Source: Brevundimonas sp. G8 (lineage in GTDB: Bacteria > Pseudomonadota > Alphaproteobacteria > Caulobacterales > Caulobacteraceae). From it: 64,000 nucleotides of DNA. Position 1 is the first letter of the stretch; the number at the start of each line of letters is the position of its first letter. A program made the position numbers and the translations under genes. Of this stretch, positions 1 to 5,217 are shown piece after piece. The notes under the pieces were generated by a model. It saw nothing but the letters and a program-made list of their open reading frames with translations. It searched no databases and was not told where the DNA came from. The DNA lies in contig NZ_LR732816.1 in assembly GCF_902506205.1 (NCBI RefSeq), forward strand, positions 1,538,106 to 1,602,105. Direction: 5' to 3'.

Positions 1-2
1 AC

Positions 3-656
3 CTCAACATTCTCTTCTCCGGCCCCATTCACTCGGCTGGCTCGCGCCCGATACGCGGCAGAGGTGAAGCTGCTTACTGGCTGCCACTTCTAGCCTTGTT
101 CAGCGGGGCGCGGTTGGAGGAACTGGCTCAGCTTAGGCGGGGCGACATCAGAGAGGAACCCTATGAGGTGGACGAAGAGACTGACGGCCTCGCGTGGTGC
201 ATCGACATCAACACCGGCCCGGATGGAAACAACCATGTGAAGAACGCCGGAGCTATCAGGCTGATCCCGCTCCATCCCACCCTGATCAATCTTGGGTTTT
301 TGAAGTACGCTCAATCCAACAGCGACCCGAATGCGCTGCTGTTCCCAGACTTGAAACCCAACGGCGAGGATCGACACGGAGCGAAGTGGGGCGAATGGTT
401 CAGTACTTACCGAAGATCAATCGGTCTGAACGACAGCCGGAAGGTTTTTCATTCCCTCAGACACACGTTCAAGGATTACTGCCGGGGTAGCAAGCTTGAG
501 GAGCGGGTTCAGCGGCAGTTGATGGGGCATGCGCCTATTGATGTCGGAGACACATATGGCGTCGGGTTCGGCTATGCGGATTTGGTGTCTGGGATACGGG
601 CTTACCGGGTTCCTCGCCTCGCCACCATTGCGCCACCGGCTTCGTCACTTGGGTAG
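3..656 (+). CDS. Tyrosine recombinase / phage-type integrase, 5' part missing
   Basis: Catalytic domain of a site-specific tyrosine recombinase that would integrate or excise the element at the left of the window. The frame is open to base 3, so the N-terminal arm- and core-binding domains lie outside. All the usual catalytic features are visible: first Arg in SGARLEEL (Arg codon 111-113), HSLRHTF with His and Arg (about 450-461), the second His in MGHA (about 528), and a nucleophile Tyr candidate in DTYGVG (about 555). Base composition is lower in GC than the genes after 5.2 kb, and a resolvase and a repressor-like gene follow, so it belongs to a mobile element. It is unlike the chromosomal XerC at 10065, which lies in its own housekeeping context. 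Confidence 0.85.
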   Translation, partial: LNILFSGPIHSAGSRPIRGRGEAAYWLPLLALFSGARLEELAQLRRGDIREEPYEVDEETDGLAWCIDINTGPDGNNHVKNAGAIRLIPLHPTLINLGFLKYAQSNSDPNALLFPDLKPNGEDRHGAKWGEWFSTYRRSIGLNDSRKVFHSLRHTFKDYCRGSKLEERVQRQLMGHAPIDVGDTYGVGFGYADLVSGIRAYRVPRLATIAPPASSLG

Positions 657-1238: not shown

Positions 1239-1511
1239 CTAGAGCCCACCCCGGCGCAGCAAGTCCGACGCAGTACACCCAAGCGCCTGGGCGATCTTCA
1301 AAACGTTCAATAAGGTAACGTTCCGCTCGCCGCGTTCGATCTTCCCCATATGCGATCGATCAATGCCGGACGCGTCAGCTAACGCCTCTTGCGACAGGGC
1401 GACTTCACGGCGGCGTGTCAGGATAGCCGCGCCCAGCTTCGGCAACGCCCCCTCGCCATCAGACTTTCCAGACACCCTCGCCATGCATTGAGAGGTCTGG
1501 CGTTGCGGCAT
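1239..1511 (-). CDS. XRE/Cro-type helix-turn-helix regulator
   Basis: A 90-residue DNA-binding protein consisting almost only of an HTH_3 domain. The pattern LGAAILTRRREVALSQEAL followed by IDRSHMGKIERGERN is the typical helix-turn-helix of phage and plasmid repressors, with SQEALA in the scaffold helix and the recognition helix around IDRSHMGKIE. An in-frame ATG nine codons later (1482-1484) is an alternative start; neither has a clear Shine-Dalgarno. It is divergent from the membrane protein at 1573, and a perfect 10-bp palindrome lies between them, so it probably represses itself and its neighbour. No effector domain is present. In integrated elements such genes usually control excision or a cargo gene; here that is inference. 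Confidence 0.8.
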   Translation of the reverse strand: MPQRQTSQCMARVSGKSDGEGALPKLGAAILTRRREVALSQEALADASGIDRSHMGKIERGERNVTLLNVLKIAQALGCTASDLLRRGGL

Positions 1512-1572: not shown

Positions 1573-1875
1573 ATGGGCATTGTTTCTTGGATCGTGCTGC
1601 TGGTGCTGCTTGGCTTCATCGGCCTCATTGCCAAGCGCTGGTATGACGACATCGTACTGGATCACGCATTTCGTGGTCTCTTCGTAGAGACGCGCACAAA
1701 GCTCACGGCGTCTCACGTTGCGGGTCTCATCCATGAGATGGAGACCTTTGACGAGCTTGAGCGGATTGCCGTCCTAGAGGGAATGGCACCTCAAGCGGCG
1801 GCACGGATCAAGAAACGCGCAGCAGTGAGGAGTATGGCCGCGCACCTTCGCGTGAACGCAATGCTACCGGGCTAA
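1573..1875 (+). CDS. Small single-span membrane protein, unknown function
   Basis: A 100-residue protein with one strongly hydrophobic N-terminal helix (residues 2-20, SWIVLLVLLGFIGLIA) and a charged cytosolic tail containing ETFDELERIAVLEGMA and an Arg/Lys-rich KKRAAVRS segment. A very good Shine-Dalgarno, AGGAGG at 1562-1567, precedes the ATG by five bases, so the gene is likely expressed. I recognise no family. It is divergent from the XRE regulator and lies inside the mobile region, so it could be an accessory such as an exclusion, toxin or defence helper protein; none of these is supported directly. Confidence 0.6.
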   Translation: MGIVSWIVLLVLLGFIGLIAKRWYDDIVLDHAFRGLFVETRTKLTASHVAGLIHEMETFDELERIAVLEGMAPQAAARIKKRAAVRSMAAHLRVNAMLPG

Positions 1876-1955: not shown

Positions 1956-2564
1956 TCAAGCCAACGCCGCGCTGCCGTTCTTATCCAGAGCGACGGCGCA
2001 GTAACGCTTCACGGTCGCGGGAGAGATGCCGAACTTGCGCGCTGTGTCGCCGATGGAAGCCCCGTTTTCCCGCCGCCACAGAGCCACCGCAGCGCCGTCA
2101 TGAGCAGCGGGCCGCCCAAGGCTCTCTTTGCCCCTGTGGGTGCGCCCTGTGGCTGCTAGTGAGGCACGGGCCACGTCGCGCCCTGCCCGTGTCCGCTCGG
2201 CAATCCGCTGCCGCTCCATGTCAGCAACTTGAGCCAGGACGGCGAGGATCAGTTCGCCGACACCTCGGCCTATTGGACCCAAGCCATGCACGTGAACGAT
2301 CACGTCCATCTCGATCAGTTGGCGCACGGTCGCCTGAACATCCAGCGCATCCCGTCCGAGGCGGTCTACCGCATAGACGTATAGCGCGTCGCCACTCCGC
2401 ACCTTGGCCAACAGGTCTGAGAAACCGGGACGAGTTGCGGCGGGCGTTGCACCACTCACACCCTCGTCGCTGAACTCTTGATCAAAGCCCCCGCCTAGCG
2501 CTGCGCGTTGGGCTTCGATGCTCTGGTCGCCGGTGCTGACGCGGTAGTAGGCAATGCGGTGCAT
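1956..2564 (-). CDS. Serine recombinase (resolvase/invertase family)
   Basis: A 202-residue small serine recombinase, the usual length for Tn3-type resolvases and invertases. The N-terminal catalytic domain has YYRVSTGDQS with the nucleophile Ser10, an Arg around 45 (ATRPGF), and DRLGRD with Asp67, Arg68 and Arg71. The long E helix with ERQRIAERTRAG follows (about 117-128), and a C-terminal helix-turn-helix with GASIGDTARKFGISPATVKRY lies at about residues 168-188. It would cut and exchange DNA at a res-like site, and a cluster of GGCTCAYAA repeats lies directly in front of its start codon. It may resolve cointegrates or invert DNA; the context is a mobile element with a separate tyrosine integrase. 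Confidence 0.92.
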   Translation of the reverse strand: MHRIAYYRVSTGDQSIEAQRAALGGGFDQEFSDEGVSGATPAATRPGFSDLLAKVRSGDALYVYAVDRLGRDALDVQATVRQLIEMDVIVHVHGLGPIGRGVGELILAVLAQVADMERQRIAERTRAGRDVARASLAATGRTHRGKESLGRPAAHDGAAVALWRRENGASIGDTARKFGISPATVKRYCAVALDKNGSAALA

Positions 2565-2800: not shown

Positions 2801-4960
2801 CTAGATCAGGACCGATATGTCCAGTTCTTCACCACCATTCTGGTGGATCTCACCGATCCGTTCTCGCTCCCTATCAAGGGTATCTCGTATCTTGCGTTGA
2901 ATAAGGTTCTCAGGCATCCCGCCGTTCAATTCTCGCACTTTCTCGGCGGCTGCCAAGAGCTCGGGAGGAATGGCATCCCGTAGAGACGTAGTGAATATCC
3001 TCGACGTGCTTGCCTCAGAAGATGTAATGCGATCCCGAGCTGGCCCGAACGCCAGATACTTCATCATGTAGTCTAGGGATATGACGGGCGAGAAGCCGAT
3101 CTCTTTCCAAATGTCTCTATCAAGCTTGTCTTTAAGCTTGTAGGCCGCTGTATCAAGAGTAAGCCACCAACAGCTATGCCCTAAACCAGATCGCTGGCGG
3201 TTCTTTTTACGCTCGCCGATGACGGTTATGCAGTTCTCAGCGTCATGCCTAGCGAGCAAATCGCTCGTATGGTTCATTGCGCCTTTGTCGCGCCGACGAT
3301 TACCGTGGACTTCCTGCCAATACGAATAAATTGACCTGACCAGATCGGGCGATACCAAATCTTCTGGACCCGGATTTTCCACATATATGTTCATGCGCTC
3401 GAAATAATCTTCCAGATCGCGCAGCGGATCGTAAGAGCCCATGAACCTCTCAATCCAAGATGCGAACTTTCCTGACTGGCCTCCGTTTAATATGTACTTA
3501 GTGTAAACGAACGGCACCCCTCCGAACCATTGCTCTGATCGTGATTTCATTACGCAGATTTCAAGGTGGTGCCGTACTTCTTCGATTACTCCTGGCGTTA
3601 CGTACATCTTTGCCGACGCCTTTGAGAGTTGCTCGAACATGCCGGTGAAAGGTCGATCGTCAGTGGGGGCTGTAGTTTCGGCGATGACAGGAAGTAAGAC
3701 GCTAGTGTCTAGCCACAGCTCTCCCTGCCTAAACAGTTTATTTGTTGCCTTCTGTACGTCCGGTGTTTCGCTTAGGAATGCAAACAATGTATAGCTATCT
3801 GATAATATGCGGAGATAATTCCGCGTCGCATCAGACGGGTTGTTCATCAAAGAAATGCACGCGGTCCGGATGAACTCAGACTGATTTCTTCCCCCAACTA
3901 GACCCGAGGGAGCTGTGCTTGATATAGCTGAACGTAGGTCGTCATCGTGAAGAACTATATCTATGTCTGAGCTTAGAGATTTAACGAACTCGTCGCCGCG
4001 TGAAACGAAGTACTTCTCAATTACCGCCTGCACGCATTCCGTAAAGCGGGTTAAATCAGATATGACAATGCTCTCGGAGGCCGCAACGATATCTCGTACA
4101 TCGGCCTCAAGCGCGCTCTGCATCAAGAGGAGGCGAGCTGCGCGATCTTTTATAGACACCGCCTCATCATGGCTAAGGTGGTATTCTGAACCATTGGCCC
4201 ATTCAGAAATGGCGTTCTTCTTTAGTCGAAGGAGGGCGCTATCAATAAATGGTTTTAGCTGATGGACTTCATATCTCGGTAGGAACCGTACCACCCTTTC
4301 ATATATCTCCTGGCGGGAGGCCCTATTATCTCTGTTGGTTCCCGCTAATGCAGCCTTCACCAGAGCGTCGAAACATGATCGTGTCAGATTTTTTCCGCTC
4401 TCCTCGTCTTCTCGTTGCATTTCAAGATAGAAAAGAGCTGTCTGCGCTTCAGACGGTGAAAAGACGGACTTCGGTTTTGGTGCCAATCCTTTTGCCGACA
4501 GTAAGGGATCGACCATCGCAATCGCTAATTGCTCAGCTGCTGCCGACCTATTCGTATCCAAGTTAGCTCTATCTAGAAACCACGTAATGTCTCGAATATC
4601 GAGAGATACACCCTTCTTAGACATCTCTCGCTTTACGGCATCGCCCTTCGCGCCGATTGTCTGATTTGTGAGGTATATTAATTCTCTCACTTCAGAGAAA
4701 TTTTCCTCCAGACGCTTCATGGTCGCCCGTATTTTAGCACCCCACTCTCCTGTCACGGAGAACTGGAAAGCAACATTGAGTTCGCCCTCTTGATTGAAGA
4801 GCTCGCTGTCTCGCCCCCCATCGCCTGATGGCGCGGCCATCGACCGGACGTTATCGAACTCAGACGCTAGGAAGGTGGACGCGAGCCGTTCGAACTTATC
4901 CCAGTCCGGATAATTCAGCCTTTGCAGCGCTAGTTCGAAGCGGTCTCGCGAAATCGTCAT
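2801..4960 (-). CDS. Two-nuclease protein: Mrr-like REase domain plus PIN-like domain (putative defence)
   Basis: A 719-residue cytosolic protein. Residues 20-110 look like a PD-(D/E)xK endonuclease of the Mrr type: WDKFERLASTFLASEF, then GDGGRD (46-51), then a strand with FQFSV (65-69) in place of the common QCK/ExK, then a helix with WGAKIRATMKRL. A long helical middle (about 160-400) has no family I recognise. Residues 415-605 look like a PIN-type RNase: LWLDTSVLLP with Asp418, TPGVIEEVRHHL with Glu460/Glu461, LARHDAENCITVI with Asp573, and TLDTAAYKL with Asp603. No membrane segments or signal peptide. Base composition is clearly poorer in GC than the chromosome. It stands alone inside the integrative element, the typical setting of anti-phage genes. 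Two nucleases in one chain suggest a self-contained abortive or restriction-like defence; this function is inferred. Confidence 0.7.
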   Translation of the reverse strand: MTISRDRFELALQRLNYPDWDKFERLASTFLASEFDNVRSMAAPSGDGGRDSELFNQEGELNVAFQFSVTGEWGAKIRATMKRLEENFSEVRELIYLTNQTIGAKGDAVKREMSKKGVSLDIRDITWFLDRANLDTNRSAAAEQLAIAMVDPLLSAKGLAPKPKSVFSPSEAQTALFYLEMQREDEESGKNLTRSCFDALVKAALAGTNRDNRASRQEIYERVVRFLPRYEVHQLKPFIDSALLRLKKNAISEWANGSEYHLSHDEAVSIKDRAARLLLMQSALEADVRDIVAASESIVISDLTRFTECVQAVIEKYFVSRGDEFVKSLSSDIDIVLHDDDLRSAISSTAPSGLVGGRNQSEFIRTACISLMNNPSDATRNYLRILSDSYTLFAFLSETPDVQKATNKLFRQGELWLDTSVLLPVIAETTAPTDDRPFTGMFEQLSKASAKMYVTPGVIEEVRHHLEICVMKSRSEQWFGGVPFVYTKYILNGGQSGKFASWIERFMGSYDPLRDLEDYFERMNIYVENPGPEDLVSPDLVRSIYSYWQEVHGNRRRDKGAMNHTSDLLARHDAENCITVIGERKKNRQRSGLGHSCWWLTLDTAAYKLKDKLDRDIWKEIGFSPVISLDYMMKYLAFGPARDRITSSEASTSRIFTTSLRDAIPPELLAAAEKVRELNGGMPENLIQRKIRDTLDRERERIGEIHQNGGEELDISVLI

Positions 4961-5181
4961 GTCACCCTGCCAGTAAATACCGAGCTTTGGTTACAACCAA
5001 AGAAAGCTCAAGCACAACTGTTAGGTATGCAATCACGGGTCGCTGCCATTGTGGAAGCCCGCTGATGCCCCATCCCGAATGTTACCGCTGGCTCGATCAT
5101 CAAGCGAGTGCTACACAAAGCTCCCACACAGGCGGACAGTGATGCTGTGTAAGTGACTGATTTTGCACGGAGAGAGGGGCC

Positions 5182-5198
5182 TCCCCTCGGCTCCACCA
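5182..5198 (+). other. Candidate attachment site: tRNA-Ala 3'-end-like fragment
   Basis: The sequence TCCCCTCGGCTCCACCA matches the end of an alphaproteobacterial tRNA-Ala gene (acceptor strand plus CCA), but no T-loop or remaining tRNA body precedes it. An element that integrates into a tRNA 3' end leaves exactly such a fragment at its distal end. Base composition and gene type change here from mobile to housekeeping. The intact tRNA would lie left of the window beyond the integrase. Inference from pattern and position. Confidence 0.4.
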
Positions 5199-5217
5199 GG
5201 CGTCCTGGAATCCAGCC

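Follow-up and report, generated by a model that had tools for sequence, protein, structure and literature searches.

A candidate single-protein defense factor joining a PD-(D/E)xK-like N-terminus to a PIN-like C-terminal half in a mobile element of Brevundimonas

What does a lone gene for a 719-aa protein do in a small integrative element of Brevundimonas sp. G8? The window, meaning the whole 64,000-nucleotide stretch of DNA that was analyzed, holds this gene on its minus strand as a single open reading frame (ORF) with an ATG start (Table 1). The original prediction took it for a compact antiphage system with a DNA-type and an RNA-type nuclease in one chain. That reading is supported by the analysis, with nuclease activity and an effect on phages as predicted properties. 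Our own interpretation, to which we assign a probability of roughly 0.5, is a single-protein defense factor borne by mobile elements, with a swappable N-terminal effector and a control half built around a winged helix and a PIN domain. That the protein serves in defense in some form is likely, and the basis for this is its genomic context.

The element is 6.2 kb long and spans the distance from tRNA-Ala(CGC) to a 22-bp repeat of the tRNA 3' end. A congener (G761, locus L060) has the empty site, where both flanks join at a single repeat copy. GC content is 0.66 in the window, 0.56 in the element, and 0.50 in the gene, so the lower-GC integrative element that had been proposed is borne out. Its sole effector-like cargo is the 719-aa gene. 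The integrase fragment that lies in the window reaches a Pfam E-value of 0.1 at best and was named by reading and position. Promoter and terminator scans gave scores no better than those of shuffled sequences.

Table 1. Features of the element and of the 719-aa protein, in window coordinates
Feature	Position	Strand	Basis
Integrase, 535 aa; starts upstream of the window (L059:13155-14762), 3' part in the window	1..656	+	Reading and position
HTH_3 regulator, 90 aa, element gene	1239..1511	-	Pfam HTH_3, E 7.9e-13
100-aa ORF in the element, no assigned family	1573..1875	+	ORF call
Serine resolvase, 202 aa, element gene	1956..2564	-	Pfam Resolvase, E 4.9e-28
Whole gene: PD-(D/E)xK-like domain, winged helix, helical bundle, PIN-like domain, tail	2801..4960	-	
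PIN-like RNase domain, residues about 411-645 (D418, E461, D573, E575, D603)	3026..3730	-	VIA-align and conservation
Helical bundle, residues about 276-410	3731..4135	-	Model; fold tentative
Winged-helix-like domain, residues about 190-275	4136..4393	-	Model; Z at most 7.6, the tool's background range
Mrr/Avs4-like PD-(D/E)xK domain, residues 1-155	4496..4960	-	VIA-align to Avs4 8dgf_B
K76, first part of the next helix (73-87)	4733..4735	-	Lys in 14/14; helix from model
FQFSV, residues 65-69: Gln-x-Ser where Gln-x-Lys is expected	4754..4768	-	Q66 and S68 in 14/14
GDGGRD, residues 46-51 (D47, D51)	4808..4825	-	D47 and D51 in 14/14 homologues
22-bp direct repeat of the tRNA-Ala(CGC) 3' end, right end of the element	5181..5202	.	

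Profile libraries say little about the protein. No Pfam model matches it up to an E-value of 10, and no NCBIfam model matches it. One library match stands out, and it is weak: in PADLOC, residues 21-108 resemble the model for an argonaute-associated REase-TIR protein (PDLC02416, E 2.7e-5), a model also matched by five of 11 family members. Two of the 11 match the PADLOC model for LmuA (best E 0.004), and in PHROGs the best E-value was 0.007, with no family matched by more than one member. Among solved structures, no convincing match came up by sequence, and the phage record collection contained no relative of the whole protein or of its N-terminal domain. How the query was built mattered. In the genome contig collection, a single-protein query found nothing and alignments of at least three rows found relatives; in the viral contig collection, a two-row alignment and the SIR2-type homologue described below found nothing as queries, and those of at least three rows did.

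An AlphaFold2 model built from 11 sequences has a mean pLDDT of 76 and a pTM of 0.63. Foldseek gave no match at E ≤ 0.001, either against the PDB or against viral models, so both nuclease folds rest on the Z scores of VIA-align. With that measure the predicted structure supports both, and the nuclease folds on which the original prediction had staked itself do appear. For residues 7-151 of the model, Avs4 (8dgf_B) ranks first among the Foldseek candidates aligned with VIA-align (Z 11.2, rmsd 2.8, 128 residues aligned), and AspBHI, EcoT38I, and MspJI follow at Z 8.0-8.9. The loop that holds GDGGRD is poorly modeled, with pLDDT below 50. GDGGRD and FQFSV had been put forward as the marks of an Mrr-type N-terminus; these residues are in place and the fold is supported by the model.

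Conservation was read from a 14-row alignment (A8), one row of which is only 20% identical to the window protein. It omits L014 (88% identical to L013), L018 (two ORFs), L020 (contig end), a Klebsiella pneumoniae plasmid copy (P0003, near-identical to P0002), a truncated copy (L005), a Gordonia remnant (L006), and the SIR2-type homologue (L002). E24, D47, D51, Q66, S68, and K76 are identical in 14/14 aligned homologues, which confirms the predicted Gln-x-Ser at the site of the usual Lys. Outside the alignment, L014, L018, and L020 likewise have Q-Y-S-V and a Lys eight residues past the Ser. The core fold and the acidic residues (E24, D47, D51) of a PD-(D/E)xK enzyme are thus present, and the Lys of (D/E/Q)xK is absent. 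A canonical Gln-x-Lys active site is rejected, with Ser in every member seen. Because the 14 aligned homologues and three others all have Ser, Gln-x-Ser is, judged from these sequences, a trait of the family and no lesion of the window copy. For the same reason, the DNase may be dead or unusual. Migration of the catalytic Lys occurs in PD-(D/E)xK enzymes, and K76 could possibly act as the substitute.

The evidence for a PIN domain is of the same kind. Residues 412-641 align first with the HARP RNase P (8ssf_A; Z 11.0, rmsd 3.5, 156 residues aligned) and then with VapC-type proteins (Z 9.0-9.5). The acidic residues expected of a PIN RNase (D418, E460/E461, D573, D603) sit at the positions predicted for them. 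E461 and D573 are identical in 14/14 homologues; D418, E460, E575, and D603 in 13/14. Both the fold and the acidic active-site residues of a PIN-domain RNase were therefore found. The 250 residues of the middle had been described as helical, which holds for the bundle; an all-helical middle does not stand, with a winged-helix-like part preceding the bundle in the model. When the middle was folded alone (pLDDT 76), its matches were mostly winged-helix proteins at Z ≤ 7.6. These values lie in the background range of the tool, so the winged-helix call rests on agreement among the rows and on secondary structure.

Relatives of the protein are rare, scattered over several phyla, and 33-43% identical to it. 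Enterobacterial plasmids carry full-length relatives with about 35% identity (eight records covering at least 80% of the query), which are near-identical among themselves. The alignment-based scan of genome contigs yielded nine loci, from Bradyrhizobium, Rubrivivax, a Comamonadaceae MAG, Massilia, a Magnetococcales MAG, Leifsonia, Hymenobacter, Streptomyces, and an Acidobacteria MAG; viral contig scans added five distinct contigs (L021, L022, L024, L025, L027). Counting the window's own genome wherever it belongs to the set, the family occurs in 2/385 genomes of the class (one being the SIR2 type), 2/398 of the phylum, and 2/121 of the genus (one a distant relative). Among E. coli genomes, a DNA search using the plasmid allele found five of 5426, all plasmid-borne. 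A housekeeping role is rejected on this distribution, given the rarity in genus, phylum, and E. coli. The distant relative of the same genus (G811, L062:6240-8555, minus strand) has 20% identity and aligns over nearly the whole length (hhalign E 3e-25). Its gene adjoins one that reads as uvrB, and the fourth PIN Asp is Glu in its protein. Two other matches to the REase profile were set aside: the first, in G595 (L034), reads as an ordinary Mrr-like protein, and the second, in G407, sits in a stretch with stops.

The family tree has 11 inner branches, four of them firm. One firm group unites the window protein with the copy from Bradyrhizobium and two from phage contigs, and another is made up of beta-proteobacterial, Magnetococcales, and phage copies. 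This tree fits horizontal spread, short of proving it. Between two phage copies (L024 and L025), dN/dS is 0.095 overall, with 0.17 in the REase domain, 0.11 in the middle, and 0.03 in the PIN domain; between L013 and L014, dN is 0.077 and dS is saturated. Purifying selection acts on both domains of the L024/L025 pair. Its strongest constraint falls on the PIN domain, which fits the PIN domain as the killer equally well. One could suppose that a dead PD-(D/E)xK fold binds DNA or dimerizes and that the PIN RNase alone kills, and both the lowest dN/dS in the PIN domain and the Ser for Lys in all members seen speak for this. However, the N-terminal acids, Gln, Ser, and K76 are invariant in 14/14, beyond the needs of a dead scaffold, and we consider this explanation improbable.

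The support for a defense role comes from where the relatives lie. We compared 17 loci: the window, L012-L020, five viral contigs, one plasmid allele, and G811 (L062). The remnants at L005 and L006 are outside this count, as is the locus of the SIR2 type. A mobile-element or defense neighbor was seen at 13/17; for six of those 13, drawn from viral or plasmid collections, the mobile context is given in advance. Outside these collections, seven of 11 loci have such a neighbor and four do not. Those four (L016, L019, L020, L062) had no defense or mobile sign among the neighbor ORFs looked at; the neighbors at L016 are polysaccharide genes by reading. The condition that would have counted against the original prediction, homologues mainly at core genome positions, thus did not come true: more homologues have a mobile-element or defense neighbor than lack one. 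Their distribution is scattered, in keeping with horizontal spread, and tied to mobile elements or defense genes, as looked for in an antiphage gene. At E 1e-20, PADLOC models match at least six of the 95 ORFs that flank the gene in the nine genome loci, in three loci, and none of the 39 window ORFs outside the element, a control that represents a single core region from a single genome. Taken by itself, the contrast does not reach significance (p about 0.12).

The neighbors themselves are varied. CBASS genes (cyclase, E1-E2, and a SAVED-HNH effector) lie near the gene at L015, PDC-S42 is a neighbor at L013, and L017 has TIR-TM, MTase_II, and a serine recombinase. At L014, TnsD and TniQ genes and glmS surround the family gene in a Tn7-like locus; a separate 179-aa Mrr_cat protein is encoded immediately upstream (L014:9382-9918, plus strand). 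Pfam identifies phage genes (lysozyme, GPD, GpU, portal) on four of the five viral contigs, and the other, L025, was judged viral by reading alone. On L027, the family gene sits past a portal gene. P2-like phages have a defense hotspot between gpA and gpQ, according to the accessible part of one report (PMC9122126). The L027 gene may or may not occupy that site.

The plasmid copies have surroundings of their own. A TrlF-family AAA gene lies beside them (L004:10578-13199, minus strand; PADLOC Ppl, E 6e-35), and a lac operon flanks them on the opposite side. One of the plasmids carries Tmn as well as the TrlF/Ppl-like gene. Directly upstream of the plasmid copies is WP_016156504 (146 aa; L004:7437-7877, L003:11437-11877), which has no Pfam match. 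As far as seen, this ORF precedes no other copies, and reading across the loci revealed no constant partner gene that might be a small antitoxin of the type II (VapBC) kind.

Such a gene need not act on phages. It could maintain its element, compete with plasmids or rival elements, or be an addiction-type toxin kept by mobile elements. The many kinds of mobile element that carry it are in line with this, as is the serine recombinase that often adjoins it (window, L012, L017, L018). However, no constant antitoxin-like partner was seen and defense genes are near in several loci, and we regard a role of this sort as very improbable. The serine recombinase genes, at four unrelated loci, adjoin or lie near the family gene at window:1956-2564, L012:9115-9810, L017:12458-12832, and L018:12723-13382.

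One homologue suggests how the protein may be divided. An 888-aa protein (L002 / L011:2837-5503, minus strand), encoded in a draft genome that is 80% complete and belongs to the class of the window organism, has a SIR2 N-terminus (Pfam SIR2_2, E 1.9e-21; PADLOC ThsA, E 8.9e-26). An HMM of residues 158-719, built without this protein, matches it at E 1.2e-11 (best of 4000 shuffles, 0.47); for the HMM of residues 1-155 (REase), it is not listed at E ≤ 10. When the HMM was split, residues 411-719 matched at E 3.9e-6 (best shuffle 0.49) and residues 158-410 at E 0.0056 (best shuffle 0.18). The significant alignment covers residues 371-579 of the homologue, which correspond to the bundle plus the beginning of the PIN domain, and hhalign reaches somewhat further. 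The placement of the PIN acids that come later is uncertain, so its PIN domain may be altered. This one SIR2-bearing homologue suggests that the constant part is the whole C-terminal half and not the middle alone, and the domain swap rests on this one sequence, from the 80%-complete draft. No second SIR2-type homologue was found in plasmids, in viral contigs, or in the order of G166 (n = 2 genomes), and in phages there was none, with one match to the SIR2 part alone. The gene for the 888-aa protein has a subunit gene of type I restriction as its direct neighbor (PADLOC E 6.6e-269).

When known defense families exchange an N-terminal domain, that domain is usually the effector. We take the N-terminal Mrr/Avs4-like nuclease domain as the effector of the window protein. 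The C-terminal half (winged helix, bundle, and HARP/VapC-like PIN domain) would hold it off and free it upon infection, most likely by binding or cutting RNA such as tRNA, and the freed nuclease would destroy phage DNA or the host's own. On this view DNA would be cleaved even with Gln-x-Ser at the Lys site, K76 perhaps serving as catalytic Lys, and RNA would be the substrate of the PIN domain. This division of labor between an N-terminal effector and a C-terminal control half is an even call.

A different assignment, the one pictured in the original prediction, makes both domains effectors: the PIN domain would cut tRNA or mRNA, the N-terminal domain would cut DNA, and the sensor would be the winged helix and bundle. 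Both active sites are conserved and both domains are under purifying selection, and the nearest folds to the PIN domain belong to enzymes that cut tRNA. Yet one homologue swaps the N-terminal domain for SIR2 and keeps part of the C-terminal half, and we hold the two-effector assignment to be rather unlikely. A bolder form of the preferred reading, an N-terminal effector under C-terminal control, is tentative and would fail more readily than it would hold: the winged-helix/bundle/PIN half may be a new infection-sensing module that drives interchangeable effectors (a PD-(D/E)xK DNase or a SIR2 NADase) in a single polypeptide, with the PIN domain sensing or cutting RNA, plausibly tRNA, as the trigger, and with a relocated Lys in the DNase (Q-x-S, then K76). 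If the preferred reading is true, this is a self-contained immune protein that combines a DNA-type effector with an RNA-type nuclease and has a natural SIR2 counterpart. It would offer a testable system for a PIN RNase as a trigger and not a toxin, and would add a compact mobile defense gene that current profile libraries miss.

Several known systems share a part with the protein. By the model, Avs4, a STAND-type antiphage sensor, has the same N-terminal Mrr-like nuclease fold; however, Avs4 has a STAND ATPase and TPR repeats, whereas the window protein is without both and has a winged helix, bundle, and PIN domain as its C-terminal half. Membership in Avs4/AVAST is rejected on architecture, with no Avs model among the PADLOC matches and no Pfam match to E 10. 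The minimal protein-only RNase P, HARP, probably has the PIN-domain fold in common with it. HARP is a stand-alone tRNA-processing enzyme, whereas the PIN domain of the window protein shares its chain with a nuclease-fold domain and is carried by mobile DNA. The argonaute-associated REase-TIR protein (PDLC02416) is alike in its N-terminal REase sequence, but the window protein has a PIN half and no TIR. Membership there is rejected as well, with the PADLOC match confined to residues 21-108 and no TIR in Pfam to E 10. SIR2-type defense proteins (ThsA and others) share their SIR2 N-terminus with the homologue L002; the window protein is without SIR2.

The nearest known system in spirit, going by the accessible part of its source, is DS-3 of DefensePredictor, a one-protein system in which a PIN RNase is needed for phage defense (PMC13092281). 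As described in that part, DS-3 is set apart by a PIN domain split between the N- and C-terminus, with no REase mentioned (PMC13092281). A literature search, mostly of open-access papers and thus weak as evidence, gave no named defense system that joins REase and PIN or SIR2 and PIN in one protein; WP_016156503 had no mention in the literature searched. The original prediction knew of no named system with this combination, which fits that search as well as Pfam, NCBIfam, PADLOC, and PHROGs.

Decayed copies were also seen. One, on a Klebsiella plasmid, is truncated and lies behind a Tn3 transposase gene (L005:8178-8810). On a Gordonia plasmid, a C-terminal remnant (L006:8154-8597) has an EcoRI-type methylase gene and a DUF262 gene as neighbors, and the Hymenobacter copy (L018:9950-12258) is split into two ORFs.
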